From: Candidatus Omnitrophota bacterium
Lineage (GTDB): Bacteria > Omnitrophota > Gorgyraeia > Duberdicusellales > 4484-171
Length of the DNA stretch: 48,647 bases
NCBI GenBank assembly: GCA_023135905.1
Contig: JAGLSE010000012.1
Location: forward strand, 1-48,647
Direction: 5' to 3'
A program made the translations under genes and the position numbers. The notes beneath the pieces are model-generated. The model had not been told where the DNA came from, did no database searches, and saw only the letters and a list, made by a program, of their open reading frames with translations. How positions within the stretch are numbered: position 1 is the first letter of the stretch; each line of letters begins with the position of its first letter. Shown piece after piece: positions 2,488-44,065 of the stretch.

Positions 2488-3360
2488 TTAATTAGTTTGT
2501 TCTTTATTTTCTGAAACACTGTTTTCAACCCAATACTTTTCAAACATATACCACTGCCCAGGATAATTTTGAATATATTTTTCTAGTATTTTAGTATATT
2601 GTTCAAGTATTTCTTTTTCAGGACATTCATTACATTTATTAAATTGTATAGGTTTTTCAAAAATCAAATTATAAAAAAATTTATTTTTACGTACTAAAAA
2701 TGAAGGTATAATTTCAGCTCCGGTCTTTAAGGCGAAAAAACTTGCTCCTCTAGGAATTGCTGCTAAGTTTGAAAACATTTCCATATTTCGGCTTGATGCG
2801 GAAAAACTTTTATCCCCTAAAATAGCTAGAATTCCTCCTTTTTTTAATGCTGAAAAACACCCTTTGACTGCTATACCAGTAGGAATAACTTTCATCCCAA
2901 CTCTCTGACGATTTCTATTAAAAAATTCATTTACTCTCTTATCCTTATGAGGAAGTGCAACACCGGAAAGTGGATACCCCAACAAAGCAGTAACGGCACC
3001 GGCTAGTTCATAATTACCTAAATGTGCTGTAAGAGCAATTACTCCTTTACCTTTAGCAAGGGCTTTATCTAAGTTTTCCAAACCGGATACTTCAACATAT
3101 TTATCAATAAATTTCTGGTTAAATTTATTATATCTGAAAAAATCAACTAAATAATAAGCAAAATTATTTACGGCTTCCTTAGAAATTTTTCTTACTTTTT
3201 CCCTATCCTTAAGAACTGGATAAAGATTATAATATAAAGCATCTTTATCTTTTTTAAATATCAAAAACCGAATTGTCGAAATAACCTTTGCTAGTTGATA
3301 ACCGATACTACGAGGCAATAATAAAACTATATATCTTCCTATGATATAAAGGTAATACAT
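2488..3360 (-). CDS. LpxL/HtrB-like lysophospholipid (lipid A) acyltransferase
   Basis: VIALTAHLGNYELAG (HxxxxE-type) and the C-terminal WYMFEKYW motif of this family. Confidence 0.85.
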   Translation of the reverse strand: MYYLYIIGRYIVLLLPRSIGYQLAKVISTIRFLIFKKDKDALYYNLYPVLKDREKVRKISKEAVNNFAYYLVDFFRYNKFNQKFIDKYVEVSGLENLDKALAKGKGVIALTAHLGNYELAGAVTALLGYPLSGVALPHKDKRVNEFFNRNRQRVGMKVIPTGIAVKGCFSALKKGGILAILGDKSFSASSRNMEMFSNLAAIPRGASFFALKTGAEIIPSFLVRKNKFFYNLIFEKPIQFNKCNECPEKEILEQYTKILEKYIQNYPGQWYMFEKYWVENSVSENKEQTN

Positions 3361-4493
3361 TAACTAATTAGACCTAATATTAAATCAACAATTCTTAAAG
3401 AAGAATCTATCAATGAAATACTTTTTGCATTCTCACGTAAAGAATACATTTGCTTTTTATCATTAAATAAGTTATACACTTGTTTTACTATTTCATTTGG
3501 GCCATCAGCTTTAATAATAGCATTATTTTTCAAAAGATGTTTAACATTTCTCTCTTCCTGACCGGGAATAGGATTTGTTATAATCATGCCTAACCCTTTA
3601 GCCAAAGCCTCAGAAATAGTAATACCACCGCCTTTTGTAATAATTATATCCGAAAAATCCATAATTTTATGAATACTCTCCGTATACCCAAAAACAAAAA
3701 TAGGTTTTTTAAATTCTTTTTTAACTTTCATCATTGACTCGTATAGTTTCTTATTCTTACCACATACTACAATAATTTGAAATTCAGAATCAAACTGGTC
3801 CAACTGCTGAGCAATTACCTTTATCGGCCCTAAGCCTAAGCCGCCGCCCATAATAAGCACGGAATTCATACCATCAATAAACCCTAATTCAGTTATAATT
3901 TGTTTTTTAGGGAAAGTAGTTAAAAATTTTACTGAAATAGGAATACCCAAAACTTTTATTTTCTTTTCATCCACCCCTTCACTAACTAAAACTTCTTTTG
4001 CTTCTTTACAAGCCACAACATACCTATCAACACAGGGATGAACCCAAAATCTATGAGGATAATAATCTGTTACTATTCCTACCAACGGAACCTTTAATCC
4101 ATATCTTTGCTTAAAATCAGCAACCAAACCGCAAGGAAAAGCTTGGGTTGCTACTATACAGTTAGGATTATTTTTCTTTATAAAATCATCAAGTTTTCCA
4201 AAAGCAAATCTATTAACAAGTTTTCTATAAGGTTTCAAAGTCTCAAGTACTTTTTTTCTATCATATGCCCTTCCCCACAAATGAGGAATGTGCTTAATAG
4301 TTATCGAATATATAAAATCAACGACCTTTTCTCCTCGAGGATAAAAATAACCTAGACCATTCAAATTAAGAACATCAACCGAAGGCTTCTTGTAAAAAAA
4401 AGCTTCTTGTAAATTGTGAGCAGCTTTGCTATGTCCACCAAATTCATTGATATGAAAAATAATAATTTTTTTTGATTCTTCCATATTCACCAA
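3360..4493 (-). CDS. MGDG synthase / processive diacylglycerol glycosyltransferase-like protein
   Basis: GGHSKAAHNL N-terminus, VTDYYPHRFWVHPCVDRYVVA, GGGLGLGPI, and TKGGGITISEALAKGLGMI as in UgtP/MGDG synthases. Confidence 0.85.
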   Translation of the reverse strand: MVNMEESKKIIIFHINEFGGHSKAAHNLQEAFFYKKPSVDVLNLNGLGYFYPRGEKVVDFIYSITIKHIPHLWGRAYDRKKVLETLKPYRKLVNRFAFGKLDDFIKKNNPNCIVATQAFPCGLVADFKQRYGLKVPLVGIVTDYYPHRFWVHPCVDRYVVACKEAKEVLVSEGVDEKKIKVLGIPISVKFLTTFPKKQIITELGFIDGMNSVLIMGGGLGLGPIKVIAQQLDQFDSEFQIIVVCGKNKKLYESMMKVKKEFKKPIFVFGYTESIHKIMDFSDIIITKGGGITISEALAKGLGMIITNPIPGQEERNVKHLLKNNAIIKADGPNEIVKQVYNLFNDKKQMYSLRENAKSISLIDSSLRIVDLILGLIS

Positions 4494-4628: not shown

Positions 4629-5957
4629 TCAGATTAAATCGATATACTTTTTACCTTCTGTAAATGGATTAAGTGAACGTTTAATTTTTATATTATTAAA
4701 CTTGCTCAAATCAATCATCTCACTGATATTATCAGAAAAAATCTCAACTTTAGGATTAAAAATATCATCGGGATTAATTTCTCTTACAATACCAATTCTA
4801 TTATCTTCCAAAATCACTATTGTCCCTTTAGGCCAAACACCTATCCCACTAAAAAATTTATCAAACAATCCCTCGGGAAATTTATTCCCTCTATTCTTTA
4901 ACATTATTTCATAAATCATTTCAGAAGGGTAATCCTGTTTATACGATCTTCTTTGAGTAAGAGCATCATACACATCACATATAGAAATAATTAAAGAAGC
5001 TATATGCGGTTTTCGAGAATAAAAAAGTTTAGGATAACCTGTTAAATCATCGCCAATATGGTGTTCAAAAGCTACTACAACCGGTAAAATTGTTAAATTA
5101 TCAACATGCCGCATAAGAATCTGAGCTCCTAAAACTGTATGACTCTTTATTTTATCGAACTCAGCATTGTCTAAACTGCCTTTTTTTTGTATTATATTTC
5201 GCGAAATATATATTTTGCCGATATCATGAAATAAACCGGCAGTGCCTATAGCTAAACAATCCTCCATGGAATAACCCAAATTATTAGAAAATGATACAGA
5301 TAAAATGCTCACATTTAAAAGATGCATAAAAGTAGTTATATCATGACCTTTGGACTGCCCTAACTTTGAAAACACCTCATAATTACCTATTAAACTCTCC
5401 ATAACATCATTGGCTATTACTTTAAACTTTACAAAATCAAACACATCATTATTAATCAAATCATCTATAGACTCATTTAGCGAAGACAAACATCTCTGAT
5501 ACTCAACAATTTCATCTTTATTCTCAGGCTGATAAACATTTTTATCAGATGAAGAATCAGTAATTCTCCCAACCGTAATATTTTTCACACCTGACTCTAA
5601 TAAGTATTGCTTAGAAATATCTACATTTTTATTGCTTCTCAAAAAACTCAGAAAATTAATCAACTCATTTTTTGACACATTTTTATTAAAAATTATTTTT
5701 TCTATTCCTCTATCTTTTAAGTTCCTAATAAATAGTGTCATACGCTTACTCAAATCGAAAAAAATGTCCTCCCCACTAGTAAGTTCTTCACCAACTATAC
5801 CTATTACTAAATCACTTTTTTTAAACAAAACATTCTGTAAATATTCAAAAGTCAGGTTTATCGATTCAATAACCTTAGGATGATCAAATTCATATATTCT
5901 GGCAACCTGCCATGATGAAACAAAATTCTCTAAGAATTTTTTAATATCTTCAACCAT
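4629..5957 (-). CDS. HD-GYP domain protein with additional N-terminal domain
   Basis: FHDIGKIYI, FEHHIGDDLTGYP, ISICDVYDALTQRRSY; about 130-aa N-terminal region similar to that of the neighbouring 637-aa protein. Confidence 0.88.
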   Translation of the reverse strand: MVEDIKKFLENFVSSWQVARIYEFDHPKVIESINLTFEYLQNVLFKKSDLVIGIVGEELTSGEDIFFDLSKRMTLFIRNLKDRGIEKIIFNKNVSKNELINFLSFLRSNKNVDISKQYLLESGVKNITVGRITDSSSDKNVYQPENKDEIVEYQRCLSSLNESIDDLINNDVFDFVKFKVIANDVMESLIGNYEVFSKLGQSKGHDITTFMHLLNVSILSVSFSNNLGYSMEDCLAIGTAGLFHDIGKIYISRNIIQKKGSLDNAEFDKIKSHTVLGAQILMRHVDNLTILPVVVAFEHHIGDDLTGYPKLFYSRKPHIASLIISICDVYDALTQRRSYKQDYPSEMIYEIMLKNRGNKFPEGLFDKFFSGIGVWPKGTIVILEDNRIGIVREINPDDIFNPKVEIFSDNISEMIDLSKFNNIKIKRSLNPFTEGKKYIDLI

Positions 5958-5963
5958 GTTTTT

Positions 5964-7877
5964 TTAAACAATTCCTCTAGCCTTATCCCTTACGATTTTA
6001 TACCAAAAAACCTTAGATTTGCTCAACGTTTCCACTAAAGCCATACCTTCGTCAAAAGGAACCTCTTCGAACAATTCTAAATTTTCGATAACAATTTTAT
6101 TTCTAAACCCCAATAAATTTTTTATACAAAAAAGTTCTTCAGCCAACCGTTGTCGATTCTTAGTTTTTTTAACCAAAACTTTATATATATATTTACGTTT
6201 AAAAGGATTTGCTTTTTTAAAAATCGAATACAAAAACTCTTCATCATAAACCGTTAACCTATTAATTTCTTTTAAAATTTCAATTTTTACAACTTCATTG
6301 GATAACCCAAAGAATGATTTAAGTACGACCCATGACTCCAAAGAATCAAGATTAATTAATTCTCCTATCAATTTCCTTATAAATGATAAATCTTTACTTC
6401 TTTTATCTACCTTTCGATAAAAAATACCTGTCTGATTTGGGAAAAATTTAAAAAAAAGCCTCAAAATAGAAGTATTCACTATTTTTTCTTCAAAAATCTT
6501 ATCTATATAAAAATCAAGATCGAACGACGAAGTTTTTAATAATTTTATATACAACTCCATATTTTGAAAATTATTATTTAAAAAAAACGAATTCTCAATA
6601 AATTTTGCAGCTTTTTGAAAAAAAACTTTAAATGTTTCGTCAAATCCATTAATATTGCTTTTTTTTTCGTCAAATACTTTCATTAAATCATTTACATATG
6701 TTATATCACTAGTCTGAACAGCTTTATCAAGTTCTGTAAGCAAAGAGTTTATAACAAAACTTAATTGCTCTTTATCATTATCAAAAACCAACAAATCTAT
6801 AAGAATATACCTGTAATTATATTCTAATTTTATTCTGTCAAAAGAAATACCTTCACTCAAATTAATATCATTTAACATCAAAGAAAAATCTTTAGTATTA
6901 AAATCAATCATCTTAGAATTTCCAGGGAGAGTAAAAATTCCTTTAACATTTTCTAAAGCGTCAGGATTATGCTTTAACCATTCTTCATTTTTAGTTTTAC
7001 TTTTCATAGATGAAATAATTTCCTTATGTTTGATCGTACCAGCAGCACCAAAAAATAAATTAAGGCTAACTGTATTAACTGCACCCTTATTTTTTAATAA
7101 TTCCATTAAAACATCCGAGATATCATCTCCTTCTAAATTATCAATAATTTTTTTAAACTTACAATAATCATCCTTTATTGATAATTTATTATTTTTTAAA
7201 ATCGAAGAAACTATACCTTTTGTACATAAATTAAATTTCTGTTTATCCTCTTTTTTTAAAAAAGTAAGAAGTTTACTCACTATTTCATGGGAATTATCTT
7301 TATCAAAAAATTCTTTAATATCAACTTTATCAATAACATCCACAAACTTATCAGCCAAAGCCAAGGTCTGCCCACCACTACCTTGTTCACCACCGCCTTC
7401 TAGAAGATAGCTCCAAACATCTTCTATTTCCGTTCCTTCTCCTTTTTCTAAAAACTTTGAATAATCCAGAGTATCAACATTAATAGAAGAAACTTCTTTT
7501 TCATTTAAAATTTTTTTTATACCGCCTTTAACCCTAATCTCTTCCGGCGTTAAATTTAAAGATTTAATGAAATTCGACAACTCCTCAAGAGTAACATCCT
7601 TTTTAATGCTTATTATTTTCACCCTGCGCCTATGCAAAAAATCGATTAATGCTTTATATTTTTTTTCATCTTTTATCTCTTGATTTCCAATAAACAAATT
7701 ACTACTGCTTATACCAATTTTTATAGGATTCATTTCTAAAATAGTTTCATCTATATTTTTTTTTAAATTTTGGACAGATTTGGTAAGAATAGGATGGTCT
7801 TCAAAATATACTGAAGAATTACTAATTGCTGCTTTCAATAAATTCAAAAAACCATTATGAATATTTTTATTAGGCAT
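5964..7877 (-). CDS. Uncharacterised helical-repeat-like protein sharing its N-terminal domain with the adjacent HD-GYP protein
   Basis: Long 637-aa ORF in the operon. N-terminus HPILTKSVQNL...IKIGISSSNLFIGNQ...KDVTLEELSNFIKSL parallels the HD-GYP N-terminus. C-terminal part is Leu/Lys-rich helical. Confidence 0.7.
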   Translation of the reverse strand: MPNKNIHNGFLNLLKAAISNSSVYFEDHPILTKSVQNLKKNIDETILEMNPIKIGISSSNLFIGNQEIKDEKKYKALIDFLHRRRVKIISIKKDVTLEELSNFIKSLNLTPEEIRVKGGIKKILNEKEVSSINVDTLDYSKFLEKGEGTEIEDVWSYLLEGGGEQGSGGQTLALADKFVDVIDKVDIKEFFDKDNSHEIVSKLLTFLKKEDKQKFNLCTKGIVSSILKNNKLSIKDDYCKFKKIIDNLEGDDISDVLMELLKNKGAVNTVSLNLFFGAAGTIKHKEIISSMKSKTKNEEWLKHNPDALENVKGIFTLPGNSKMIDFNTKDFSLMLNDINLSEGISFDRIKLEYNYRYILIDLLVFDNDKEQLSFVINSLLTELDKAVQTSDITYVNDLMKVFDEKKSNINGFDETFKVFFQKAAKFIENSFFLNNNFQNMELYIKLLKTSSFDLDFYIDKIFEEKIVNTSILRLFFKFFPNQTGIFYRKVDKRSKDLSFIRKLIGELINLDSLESWVVLKSFFGLSNEVVKIEILKEINRLTVYDEEFLYSIFKKANPFKRKYIYKVLVKKTKNRQRLAEELFCIKNLLGFRNKIVIENLELFEEVPFDEGMALVETLSKSKVFWYKIVRDKARGIV

Positions 7878-7964: not shown

Positions 7965-9110
7965 CTAAAAATATTCATTATAAATCGCCGATATTTTATA
8001 AAAAAATGAATTTTTAACCTTATGTTCATTCTCAAGAAAACGAGTCGTTCCATATTTCACACACCCAAAAGAAGGTGATAAAGTAGATTTATACGTTTGA
8101 GATTTTATGGAGACAGAAACAAATTTCGTTAAAAAACCATAAAACCCTTCCTTTGAATTTAACCTACCGACAAAAGCAATAGCAAACTCTTTATTCCCTG
8201 TTAATTGTTTTATTTCTTTAATTAATCTCTCTATTTCTTTACCAATATACCTTTTAGTAAACATATTTATACTTTGAGTACTCAAATTTATATACGAATC
8301 TTCTTTCTTCACAGTAATTTCTTTAGAATAAGATAATTCCTTAAATGAAATATAGCGCAAAAATACTTCTTCTGCCAAAGACAGAGATATTAAGAATTCA
8401 TTTGCCAATTTATCTAAAATTTTTTTTACCCCGAAATCAGTATACTCTATAAAATTAAAACCACTTTTATCCCTTATAACAATATGACTTGTACCATAAT
8501 CAATAGATATAACAGCCTGAATACCATTCTTTTTCTCATAAACTTGTGCAAATAAGCCTATTGGTCCGGCAATAACCCCTCCAAAAACCCTATCTAAACT
8601 GTCAAAAATTGATTCAACTTCTTTGTAAACTTTATCTTTAATCCACATCAATAATGATTTTATCTCAATTTTTTTTGCCCAACAATTTAAAGGGGGATTA
8701 TCATATTCAATCCCTTCCACATTGAAATGTATTGGGATATTATGCACACAAAAGTCATCCCAATCTAAAAATTTATTTTCCAAATAACTTTTTGCCAATG
8801 AAATATCTCCAGTTGTAATTTTTTTCTTCCGTTTTAAAAGGAAAGTTTCGGAGACTACTTTACTCTCTACAAAATTCCACGGCAATCCTAAAAATATTTT
8901 TTTTATTATAAACGATTTTTTATTTTCTATTTCTTTAATTTTTTTATCAAAAGTCTCAATATTTTGATATAAAAAATCTAGAACATTTTGTTCCATTAAA
9001 GGCAATGGGAGTTCTATTTCCTGTATAAACTTAAATTTTCCCTTTTCTAACGAGCTAAAAGTTATAAAACTTTTGTCCTCATCAAAAACAATCGCGCAAT
9101 CAACATACAT
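7965..9110 (-). CDS. ftsA: Divergent FtsA-like actin-fold ATPase
   Basis: Position directly after ftsQ; ISIDYGTSHIVIRDKSGFNFIEYTDFGVKKILDKLA.EF.ISLSLAEEV resembles the FtsA phosphate/SHS2 region. Overall similarity is weak. Confidence 0.65.
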   Translation of the reverse strand: MYVDCAIVFDEDKSFITFSSLEKGKFKFIQEIELPLPLMEQNVLDFLYQNIETFDKKIKEIENKKSFIIKKIFLGLPWNFVESKVVSETFLLKRKKKITTGDISLAKSYLENKFLDWDDFCVHNIPIHFNVEGIEYDNPPLNCWAKKIEIKSLLMWIKDKVYKEVESIFDSLDRVFGGVIAGPIGLFAQVYEKKNGIQAVISIDYGTSHIVIRDKSGFNFIEYTDFGVKKILDKLANEFLISLSLAEEVFLRYISFKELSYSKEITVKKEDSYINLSTQSINMFTKRYIGKEIERLIKEIKQLTGNKEFAIAFVGRLNSKEGFYGFLTKFVSVSIKSQTYKSTLSPSFGCVKYGTTRFLENEHKVKNSFFYKISAIYNEYF

Positions 9111-9165: not shown

Positions 9166-9966
9166 TCACCGGTTTAATTTTACAATTACTCTCTCAAATC
9201 TTAAATCGAAATATTCTACTAAAGAAAGTTTATCCTTAAAATATACTTGAATTTCTTCCCTCAGTTTTTCTAATCTTTTTTGAAATTTCCCATCTCCAAT
9301 TTTAACCATTATATCTTTTTTGAAAAATTTTTTATTCTCATCTAAAATATTTAATTCCAAAATAAAATATAATGCTTGAATAGAAGAAGAATTTATCGAT
9401 TTTATTTTAGAATCTTTGAAAAACTCATTATCTTTAAAAGCCCTAACCAAATTAACTGAACTTCTTACTTTTTCATTAATAACTTCATCCCCAATCTTAT
9501 AATACTGTTCATAATTACTAGCTTCAATAGAAATCAAACCTTCGTATGGATTAGATTGGCCATTAGTTAAAACTATTAAATCTACATCTATAGGATAAAA
9601 CTTTTTCCCCTTAATTTGAGCAAATAACTCTCTTTTTTCAACTTCAATAATCAAAGATGACGGAAATTTTTTCACAACAGACACCTTTTTAAAGATAGGG
9701 TTACGCTCAAGAATATCTGCCGAAATAGCTTTAATATCTATTACGAATAAAGACTGACCCATTATTCGATTTAAAATATTTTTATCTAATTGAACATTAC
9801 AATGAATACTTCCTTTTTTTACCCTAAAATTATCAGATTTATAAACCATAAAACCTGTACCACCAAAAATAAAAATTAATAAAATAAAAAACACACTACC
9901 CTTAATAAGGGTAGGACTAATTTTAAAAGGCAAATACTTAATCTTTTTTTTCTTTCTCTTTCTCAT
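9166..9966 (-). CDS. ftsQ: Cell division protein FtsQ (POTRA domain)
   Basis: Basic N-tail, single TM, POTRA-like NPIFKKVSVVKKFPSSLIIEVEKRELFAQI; located between ddl and the ftsA-like gene. Confidence 0.85.
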   Translation of the reverse strand: MRKRKKKKIKYLPFKISPTLIKGSVFFILLIFIFGGTGFMVYKSDNFRVKKGSIHCNVQLDKNILNRIMGQSLFVIDIKAISADILERNPIFKKVSVVKKFPSSLIIEVEKRELFAQIKGKKFYPIDVDLIVLTNGQSNPYEGLISIEASNYEQYYKIGDEVINEKVRSSVNLVRAFKDNEFFKDSKIKSINSSSIQALYFILELNILDENKKFFKKDIMVKIGDGKFQKRLEKLREEIQVYFKDKLSLVEYFDLRFERVIVKLNR

Positions 9967-41186: not shown

Positions 41187-42221
41187 TCAGAAATAAAAAG
41201 ACCTGGTGTTTTTTATATAGGTTTCAGTATTCTTAACTATCTTATTCATCATATCTATAACCTTGTGAGGATGATTACCAATTGCTGTTTCTCCTGAAAG
41301 AAGTAAATGGGTTGCACCGTCTAAAATAGCATTTGCCACATCACTTACCTCTGCTCTGCTCGGAAGAGAATCCGTAGTCATACTTTCAAGCATTTGAGTA
41401 GCTACAACAACAGGTTTTCCGGCCAAACAGCATTTTTTAATAATCTCTTTTTGGATAACAGGGACTTTATATATCGGAACACAAATACCTAAATCACCTC
41501 GAGCCACAATTATTCCGTCAGATTCCCCAATAATACTATCAATATTTCCTAAAGCTTCCTTGCTCTCTATTTTCGAATAAATCTTACATTCCGAATGTTT
41601 AGTCTTTACAATCTCTTTTAAAGATATTAAATCACCTTTATTCCTTACAAAGGATAGAGCAATATAATCAAGTTTATATTTTATAGCGACTTCAACATCT
41701 TTTTGATCTTTTAACGTCAAAGCTGAAAAATCTAAGTTTACCTCGGGTATATTGACTCCTTTATTATCCATTAATAATCCGGGAGTTACAGTTCTAACTC
41801 TCAATCGTTTTTTTTCTACTGTTTTTACCTTAACAACTACTTTACCGTCATTGATATATATTAAAGTGTCTTTTTTAAATCCCTTTAACGAACCTTCATA
41901 ATCAAAATAAATTTCTTCTTCTGTACCTAATATATTATCCTGAATTAAATAAAACTCTTTACCTTTCCTTAAATCAACAAAGTTTTTTAATTTACCAATA
42001 CGAATGCGATACCCCTCTAAATCCTGCATAATTTTAATAGACCGTTTCATCTTCCGATTCAAAACTCGGATAAGTTCTATTTTTTTAATATGGTCTGAAG
42101 TTGTTCCATGTGAAAAATTAAGACGAACCACGTCTAGACCGTTAATATACATTTTTCTCAAAATAGTCTCAGAACTACTGGAAGGACCTAATGTGGCAAT
42201 AATTTTTGTTTTCGGTATCAT
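41187..42221 (-). CDS. pyk: Pyruvate kinase, short form (C-terminal domain absent)
   Basis: MIPKTKIIATLGPSSSSE, VRLNFSHG, LSFVRNKGDL, IVARGDLGICVP, KPVVVATQMLESM, LLSGETAIGNHP. Start at 42221 overlaps the upstream stop as ATGA. The protein ends right after the barrel. Confidence 0.92.
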   Translation of the reverse strand: MIPKTKIIATLGPSSSSETILRKMYINGLDVVRLNFSHGTTSDHIKKIELIRVLNRKMKRSIKIMQDLEGYRIRIGKLKNFVDLRKGKEFYLIQDNILGTEEEIYFDYEGSLKGFKKDTLIYINDGKVVVKVKTVEKKRLRVRTVTPGLLMDNKGVNIPEVNLDFSALTLKDQKDVEVAIKYKLDYIALSFVRNKGDLISLKEIVKTKHSECKIYSKIESKEALGNIDSIIGESDGIIVARGDLGICVPIYKVPVIQKEIIKKCCLAGKPVVVATQMLESMTTDSLPSRAEVSDVANAILDGATHLLLSGETAIGNHPHKVIDMMNKIVKNTETYIKNTRSFYF

Positions 42222-44065
42222 AAATCTCTTCGCCTTGTGGATGACAATATTAACATCCTTAATCCCTCTTTTGTTTTCATTCTCATCCAATTTTTATAGA
42301 AATTATGTTCTCTTACAATTTGAGCTATAGCCATTAAACTTCGTAAATGAAAATTTCTTTCATCAATTGTTCCAGCAAGAACAAATGCGACTTCTACAGG
42401 TTTTTTATCCAAAGAAAAAATTATTCCTTTCCTTGCCCGAACCATAATAATACTAAATTTATGAAAACCTTCTACCACGATATGAGGCAAAGCCAACCCT
42501 TCTTCTAATACAGTAGTAGATTGCTCCTCTCTTTTTTCAAGTAAAATGTTTATATTCTCTTTCGGCATATTGAATTTTCTTGAAAAGGTTTCTGAAATTA
42601 AATCAAAAAACTCCTTCCTATCAATTTTTTCTTCTAAATCAAGAACATCACAATCTTCAATCAAATGATCAAATCTATCTTTAATTATATTATCTCTTGT
42701 CTGTAATATGCCCTTTAATTCATCTTCTAACGTATTATTTACAAATTCCTTAGCAGTCAGCCTCTCCACTAAATGCATTAGCGCGGATTGTCTTTTTAAT
42801 TTATTCGCATTGGAAATAAACCATATAAAACTTATAACAACAAATGAAATAGTTATAACTAAAGGAACTGCTCCCATCTCAAAAATCAAAAAGCTATAAG
42901 CAATAAGAGCGAATATCTGTATCCAAGGGTAAAACGGAGCTTTAAAACTAGGGCGATAATTTATAATTTTACTTTCTCTCATTATAATTACCGAAAGATT
43001 TACAAACATAAATAAAATAATCATAAGAGTAGATGCAGTTTTTACTAAATTCTCCAAATCTAAAAATAAAATTAGCACTAGCATGAATAAACCCGTTGAA
43101 ATTACCGATACATACGGTATCCCGGATTTTTTCAAAACTAAAGAAAATTTAGAAGGAAGAAGACCATCTTTGGCCATAGCAGACGGTACTCTTGAAGAAG
43201 AAAGTATTCCAGCATTAGCAGTGCTGAAAAAAGCTGTCATCGCTGATAAAGACATAATTATGCCAAACCAAAACCCTCCCAAACTTAAAGCGCCTTGTGT
43301 TAAAGGAGTACGAGTACTTAAAAACTCATTAGCCGGTAAAATACCCACAGTTATAGCAACACATAAAATATAAATTATTTGAACCACAAAAAATGATAAA
43401 AACATACCTATCGGAATAACCTTGGAAGGATTCTCTGTATCCTCAGCAATAGAAGCAACTTTAGTTAGTCCTCCATAACATATAAATACCATTCCTGCTA
43501 CTGAAAATATAGGTTTGATACCGTTTGATATGAAAGGAGAAAAATAATCAAAATTAACTTTCTTTATTCCAAAAACTATATACATCAAACAAGAAAAAAG
43601 CAAAAAACCTACCAATACATTCTGAAATCTAGCACTCACTTTAACACTAAAAAGGTTAATTAACGTAAAAATTATACAAAACGAAGCAGCTACAAGTTTT
43701 ATTTGAAAATAATCAACTGAAGGAACAAAATATTCTAAGAACATTCCTATACCAACCAAAGCAAACGCGCTTTTTAAAGCAATAGAAAACCAATTTGAGA
43801 GACCGCCAAAAATACCCATAAAAGGACCAAAACTGCGTTCTATAAAGAAATACGTTCCTCCACTCTTGGGCATAGCCGTGAGCAATTCTGATTGCGATAA
43901 AACAGATGGTATCATTAACATCCCTGCTATCAAATATGATATAATCATAGAAGGGCCTGCATATTTGTAAGCAACAACAGGCAAAATAAATAGTCCGGAG
44001 GAAATCATAGCACCGGAAGCTATACAAAATATATCCCATAAATTAAGTTTTCTTTTATGTATCAT
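42218..44065 (-). CDS. APC-family amino acid permease fused to a C-terminal PTS EIIA (type 2)-like domain
   Basis: LWDIFCIASGAMISSGLFILPVVAYKYAGPS permease N-terminus; C-terminal ...TTVLEEGLALPHIVVEGFHKFSIIMVRARKGIIFS with the EIIA-type PH motif. Confidence 0.85.
   Translation of the reverse strand: MIHKRKLNLWDIFCIASGAMISSGLFILPVVAYKYAGPSMIISYLIAGMLMIPSVLSQSELLTAMPKSGGTYFFIERSFGPFMGIFGGLSNWFSIALKSAFALVGIGMFLEYFVPSVDYFQIKLVAASFCIIFTLINLFSVKVSARFQNVLVGFLLFSCLMYIVFGIKKVNFDYFSPFISNGIKPIFSVAGMVFICYGGLTKVASIAEDTENPSKVIPIGMFLSFFVVQIIYILCVAITVGILPANEFLSTRTPLTQGALSLGGFWFGIIMSLSAMTAFFSTANAGILSSSRVPSAMAKDGLLPSKFSLVLKKSGIPYVSVISTGLFMLVLILFLDLENLVKTASTLMIILFMFVNLSVIIMRESKIINYRPSFKAPFYPWIQIFALIAYSFLIFEMGAVPLVITISFVVISFIWFISNANKLKRQSALMHLVERLTAKEFVNNTLEDELKGILQTRDNIIKDRFDHLIEDCDVLDLEEKIDRKEFFDLISETFSRKFNMPKENINILLEKREEQSTTVLEEGLALPHIVVEGFHKFSIIMVRARKGIIFSLDKKPVEVAFVLAGTIDERNFHLRSLMAIAQIVREHNFYKNWMRMKTKEGLRMLILSSTRRRDL

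Follow-up and report, generated by a model that had tools for sequence, protein, structure and literature searches.

An HD-GYP protein and a predicted helical-repeat partner with a common N-terminal domain lie after ftsA in one family of Omnitrophota

An unusual gene pair in the division operon

We examined a stretch of DNA from a Candidatus Omnitrophota bacterium (the window; 48,647 nucleotides of a 1.66-Mb draft genome) that carries an HD-GYP protein and a 637-residue protein, here called P637, in the slot directly after ftsA, where ftsZ usually lies. An earlier note, made from the letters of the window, had reported two adjacent ORFs in this slot, and both were recovered there, on the minus strand and 6 nt apart, with 87 nt between the stop of the FtsA-like gene and the pair. 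The relevant features are as follows.

3360 to 4493, minus strand: MGDG-synthase-type glycosyltransferase (Pfam PF06925), first gene after the pair
4629 to 5957, minus strand: HD-GYP protein, 442 aa; N-domain (residues ~3 to 133), linker helices, HD-GYP domain (~205 to 370), and small C-terminal beta domain (~375 to 430)
5559 to 5951, minus strand: shared N-domain of the HD-GYP protein, residues 3 to 133, from hhalign against the P637 N-domain
5964 to 7877, minus strand: P637, 637 aa; N-domain (residues ~5 to 138), then a likely HEAT/ARM-like alpha-solenoid of ~500 residues
7464 to 7865, minus strand: shared N-domain of P637, residues 5 to 138, from hhalign
7965 to 9110, minus strand: divergent FtsA-like protein, gene directly upstream of the pair (TIGR01174, 28 bits; family profile, E 4e-10)
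9166 to 9966, minus strand: FtsQ (POTRA_1; Pfam PF08478, E 5e-7)

The operon is read on the minus strand and comprises, in order, ftsW, murG, a peptidase-MA protein, murC, murB, ddl, ftsQ, the FtsA-like gene, P637, and the HD-GYP gene. Genes for the MGDG-synthase-type glycosyltransferase and for an acyltransferase of the LpxL type come next. Scans of the slot for promoters and terminators gave results at or near chance. At 42218 to 44065, the window also encodes a fusion of an amino-acid permease with a domain of the PTS EIIA type.

The protein encoded upstream of the pair is a divergent homolog of FtsA. It scored 28.2 bits against TIGR01174, far under the cutoff of 175.85, although its family profile matched solved FtsA structures at E 4e-10, which makes the homology clear. 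By eye, its phosphate and adenosine motifs look degenerate, and the C-terminal (E/D/G)YF end is kept in aligned family members; the protein is possibly a pseudo-actin. The phylum in which it occurs appears to lack FtsZ. No genome out of 236 in the phylum (204 of which reach 90% completeness with no more than 5% contamination) had an FtsZ (TIGR00065) match over the cutoff, which 13 of 14 control genomes passed, and the tubulin/FtsZ GTPase family (PF00091) was found in none of 146 phylum genomes. One remote FtsZ-like match of 51 bits came from a 440-aa protein in genome G022 (L066). Many genomes of the class nevertheless keep ftsW, ftsQ, and the ftsA-like gene. In the literature, FtsZ has been reported in Omnitrophica OLB16, with its absence from two other genomes left open (PMC5147048); the phylum has been grouped with those keeping dcw genes (PMC12283558), and FtsZ goes unmentioned in the main text of PMC10066038.

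A common N-terminal domain on an HD-GYP protein and a predicted helical partner

The HD-GYP protein and P637 begin with a common domain of ~130 aa, which the earlier note had recognized by aligning their N-termini. A two-sequence BLASTP comparison gave 26% identity over 88 aa at E 0.021, a value that alone leaves the shared domain unproven, and it is the comparison of profiles that settles the match. With 22 family members, hhalign aligned the two N-domains over 129 columns at a probability of 98.8% (E 4.5e-17); with 65 pairs, the probability was 99.1% (E 9e-19). The controls, a reversed domain and four other, non-N-terminal segments of P637, reached only 0.2 to 5%. AlphaFold2 models, built on alignments of 27 and 26 sequences, show the same elements in both proteins in the order helix-helix-strands-helix-strand-helices-strand, a likeness in order and not in superposed coordinates. 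In P637, these are helices at residues 3 to 23 and 29 to 46, strands at 52 to 56 and 61 to 63, a helix at 75 to 83, a strand at 86 to 91, helices at 97 to 107, 111 to 116, and 120 to 126, and a strand at 132 to 136. The corresponding elements of the HD-GYP protein are helices at 2 to 21 and 27 to 46, strands at 49 to 55, 58 to 61, and 64 to 66, a helix at 71 to 82, a strand at 87 to 91, helices at 96 to 107 and 116 to 121, and a strand at 127 to 130. With element order equal in the models, the two N-termini do not have unrelated folds. A Pfam search returned no family covering the domain.

The N-domain is found well beyond the pair. It occurs on histidine kinases (L056 and L057), on GGDEF-AAA proteins (L058 and L172), and on a HEAT_2 protein in L100 that adjoins another N-domain HD-GYP protein, and a further neighboring pair of an N-domain solenoid and an HD-GYP protein is encoded in L173. 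A 702-aa protein with the N-domain is also encoded in the window's own genome (L171:1-2109; G000:C123), adjoining two T2SSE ATPases of the PilT/PilB type, one with an MshEN domain. Since the domain is carried by GGDEF-AAA, histidine-kinase, and HEAT proteins, we regard it as a modular signaling domain. P637-like matches beside rodA/mreBCD (L056, L057, and L058) had been considered as a link to cell-wall synthesis, which we dropped because these proteins are the histidine kinases and one of the GGDEF-AAA proteins named above and have only the N-domain in common with P637. Separately, an N-domain match at ~63645 to 63992 of G041:C13 lies inside an open frame of 23,632 codons, that of a giant protein.

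The role of the N-domain is probably either association or the binding of a common ligand. In the strongest rival to association, it is a ligand- or state-sensing input through which both proteins would respond to one signal in parallel without having to be in contact. The variety of outputs that bear the domain (HD-GYP, histidine kinase, GGDEF-AAA, and HEAT) is what would be expected of a sensor. However, the strict adjacency of the two genes in this subfamily and the solenoid/HD-GYP neighbors in L173 and L100 fit a complex better, and we consider a purely parallel sensor rather unlikely.

The remainder of the first protein bears out the HD-GYP output that had been assigned to it. It exceeds the Pfam cutoffs for PF01966 (HD; 44.6 bits versus 22) and PF13487 (HD_5; 42.2 versus 27.2), its family profile matches the c-di-GMP phosphodiesterase of PDB 4mcw at E 2.4e-38, and its model matches the same structure in Foldseek at E 1.7e-6, the confidence of the HD-GYP region of the AlphaFold2 model being only moderate. 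From solved HD-GYP structures and the positions in the alignment, we take H212, H244, D245, H273, H299, H300, and D328 to be the seven expected metal ligands; all seven are invariant in 65/65 pairs. The GYP motif is likewise conserved (G in 62, Y in 64, and P in all 65). The HHE(xx)DG motif that precedes it departs from the canonical form, with HH kept, E replaced by L in 53/65, D present in 54/65, and G lost, so that the extended motif reads HHLxYDxxGYP. Because this motif is partly degenerate, we class the protein by its fold, ligands, and GYP motif and do not assume activity; with Leu in place of the HHE Glu in 53/65, its rate or substrate may differ.

Known c-di-GMP phosphodiesterases, namely, PmGH (PDB 4mcw), PA4781 (4r8z), and DvhD (9rbz), share the HD-GYP fold, metal ligands, and GYP motif with the window protein. 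They differ in having an N-terminal GAF, receiver, or PAS domain where the window protein has its unnamed N-domain, in lacking the Glu-to-Leu change in HHE, and in lacking an obligate partner encoded next door. Bd1817 of Bdellovibrio (PDB 3tm8) likewise combines an HD-GYP domain with an N-terminal part (Foldseek TM ~0.5, normalized to the target), although its sequence similarity to the window protein is weak and confined to the linker and HD region, and no partner is on record for it here. The loss of the HHE Glu and of the Gly after Asp could mean that the HD-GYP domain works as a degenerate sensor or as a phosphohydrolase with a different substrate, and that the pair stands outside c-di-GMP turnover. 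We find this improbable, given that all metal ligands and GYP are kept, that the closest relatives of solved structure are phosphodiesterases of c-di-GMP and cGAMP, and that GGDEF and PilZ proteins are abundant (11 matches of each in the genome of the window). Judged by these residues and motifs, the HD-GYP protein is probably an active enzyme of an unusual subfamily. The intact metal ligands and the many GGDEF and PilZ domains in the genomes also make plausible the connection with c-di-GMP that the earlier note had suggested.

From residue 139 on, the AlphaFold2 model of P637 (mean pLDDT, 80.9) is all helical, in keeping with the large helical repeat body that had been expected of it. Foldseek matches of the model were to importins, the PP2A scaffold, and CAND1, all weak (best E 7e-4; TM ~0.2). 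The P637 of the window matched no Pfam family and no repeat model, HEAT_2 was reached by 1 of 27 family members, and searches of the PDB with sequence or profile returned nothing useful. The model thus suggests that the body is likely a HEAT/ARM-like protein-binding solenoid. The modeled body suggests a helical solenoid architecture like that of the HEAT/ARM scaffolds importin beta, the PP2A A subunit, and CAND1; these, however, are eukaryotic, have low TM scores and no sequence relationship to P637, and the N-domain is a feature of P637.

A strict pair with an optional place beside ftsA

P637 lies directly upstream of the HD-GYP gene in 71 of 71 distinct readable pairs, with gaps of -134 to +55 nt, so the pair is conserved in relatives of the window. 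We found no true exception; each apparent one traced to the end of a contig, an over-called start, a stretch that is masked or unbroken (L106), or an HD-GYP protein other than this one. The P637 profile was matched in 100 of 236 phylum genomes, many of them in the N-domain only. Pairs occur in several families of Omnitrophota and also in Aminicenantes/Acidobacteriota. Those of Aminicenantes/Acidobacteriota group in one supported clade, which suggests that the pair probably moved as a unit. Across 65 pairs, P637 and HD-GYP distances correlate at 0.91 (at most 0.19 in shuffles), a value to which shared phylogeny contributes in part. At three loci in Aminicenantes/Acidobacteriota, the gene immediately upstream of the pair encodes a PAS-GGDEF protein (L110:3376-4320, L122:6141-7076, and L129:3290-4225); since the GGDEF signature is missing and only these 3 loci have the gene, the neighbor lends weak support. 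Literature on HD-GYP proteins with HEAT repeats or with FtsA contained nothing on the pair, as judged by title and abstract.

The place after ftsA is far less constant than the pairing. Within the family of the window, the pair directly follows ftsA in 26 of 31 readable genomes, and a dcw location is found only in that family. The remaining five (G001, G003, G005, G014, and G016) have the dcw operon intact, with FtsQ and FtsA followed by other genes, and P637 is found nowhere in them. G005 is a single contig; the others are drafts of 80 to 92% completeness, in each of which the empty slot was read directly. In pair-less genomes, the MGDG-synthase-type gene closes the slot (L155, L157, and L159). 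G001 belongs to the same genus as the window and is its nearest neighbor in the FtsA tree (FtsA 77% identical). Because absences are scattered over this tree, one gain and several independent losses are the simplest account, and the pair is dispensable where it has been lost.

In the sister family and other families, the pair lies outside the dcw cluster beside unrelated genes. It is found between atpC and pyrG-carAB in L084, L090, L093, and L101 (gene names assigned by eye from L093), by mnmA-nadA in L051, by the lipoate genes lipA/lplA in L055, and in further places. Various genes follow FtsA in those families, among them ones for a YggS-like protein, MgtE, an N-acetylmuramoyl-L-alanine amidase, and a FabG-like protein, all named by eye from their sequences. 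We had also considered that some other conserved gene after FtsA substitutes for FtsZ, a candidate rejected because unrelated genes fill the slot in other families.

Could the pair be a dedicated divisome regulator, with P637 binding FtsA or FtsQ and the HD-GYP protein linking septation to c-di-GMP in an organism that has no FtsZ? Its position directly after ftsA in most of the family, 87 nt from the FtsA stop in the window, speaks for such a role, as does the failure to find FtsZ or tubulin in the phylum, where unusual division factors would be expected. However, conservation with division genes in relatives, as expected of a divisome component, was not observed: in all other families the pair is outside the dcw cluster and unrelated genes (YggS-like, MgtE, or amidase) follow FtsA, and five genomes of the family itself, including the same-genus relative and the single-contig genome, have FtsA without P637. 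We therefore think it improbable that the pair is a divisome regulator. The pair sits in the usual ftsZ slot, and its distribution does not fit a replacement of FtsZ. At most it plays an accessory part in division, and it rides as an optional passenger where the division operon ends. The co-occurrence of the two genes across genomes is thus strict, and their adjacency to ftsA is a trait of one family, so of the module proposed earlier to control division or envelope growth, the part concerning control of division finds no support in the form proposed.

Part of the family has a response regulator and a GAF-HD-GYP gene in the same slot (L042:4986-6582; also L039, L041, L045, L046, L050, L063, and L156). 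They separate the MGDG-synthase gene from the pair or, in genomes that lack the pair, from FtsA. Since they are there with or without the pair, a weaker possibility is that there is some use in having cyclic-dinucleotide enzymes close to this operon.

A tethered phosphodiesterase as the favored reading

Taken together, we moderately favor the view that the pair is an accessory c-di-GMP phosphodiesterase with P637 as its dedicated scaffold, the two being joined by their N-domains and the solenoid tethering them to a client. The HD-GYP protein would act as a metal-dependent cyclic-dinucleotide phosphodiesterase, most likely on c-di-GMP. As its dedicated partner, P637 would combine the same N-domain with a helical solenoid that binds proteins. 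The two proteins probably pair through their N-domains, by hetero-association or a mixture of homo- and hetero-association, and the enzyme is probably tethered to a client by way of the solenoid. Such tethering could serve local removal of c-di-GMP, or the state of the enzyme could switch the scaffold. In the family of the window, a module at the tail of the division operon could feed into envelope growth without being a required part of the divisome. A bolder extension, which we consider very improbable, would have the N-domain dock heterotypically and so connect enzymes of c-di-GMP turnover with scaffolds throughout a signaling network; in the window's family, the scaffold would then dock on the divergent FtsA, and c-di-GMP would gate constriction in a phylum whose division proceeds without FtsZ.

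Once the pair, which is general, is told apart from its location after ftsA, which is local, there remains a defined hypothesis of a docking domain, a scaffold, and a phosphodiesterase, through which cyclic dinucleotides may be controlled locally in two uncultured phyla. The shared, unnamed N-domain is worth naming. The locus also draws attention to a phylum in which FtsZ appears to be missing, although ftsW, ftsQ, and a divergent ftsA have stayed together.
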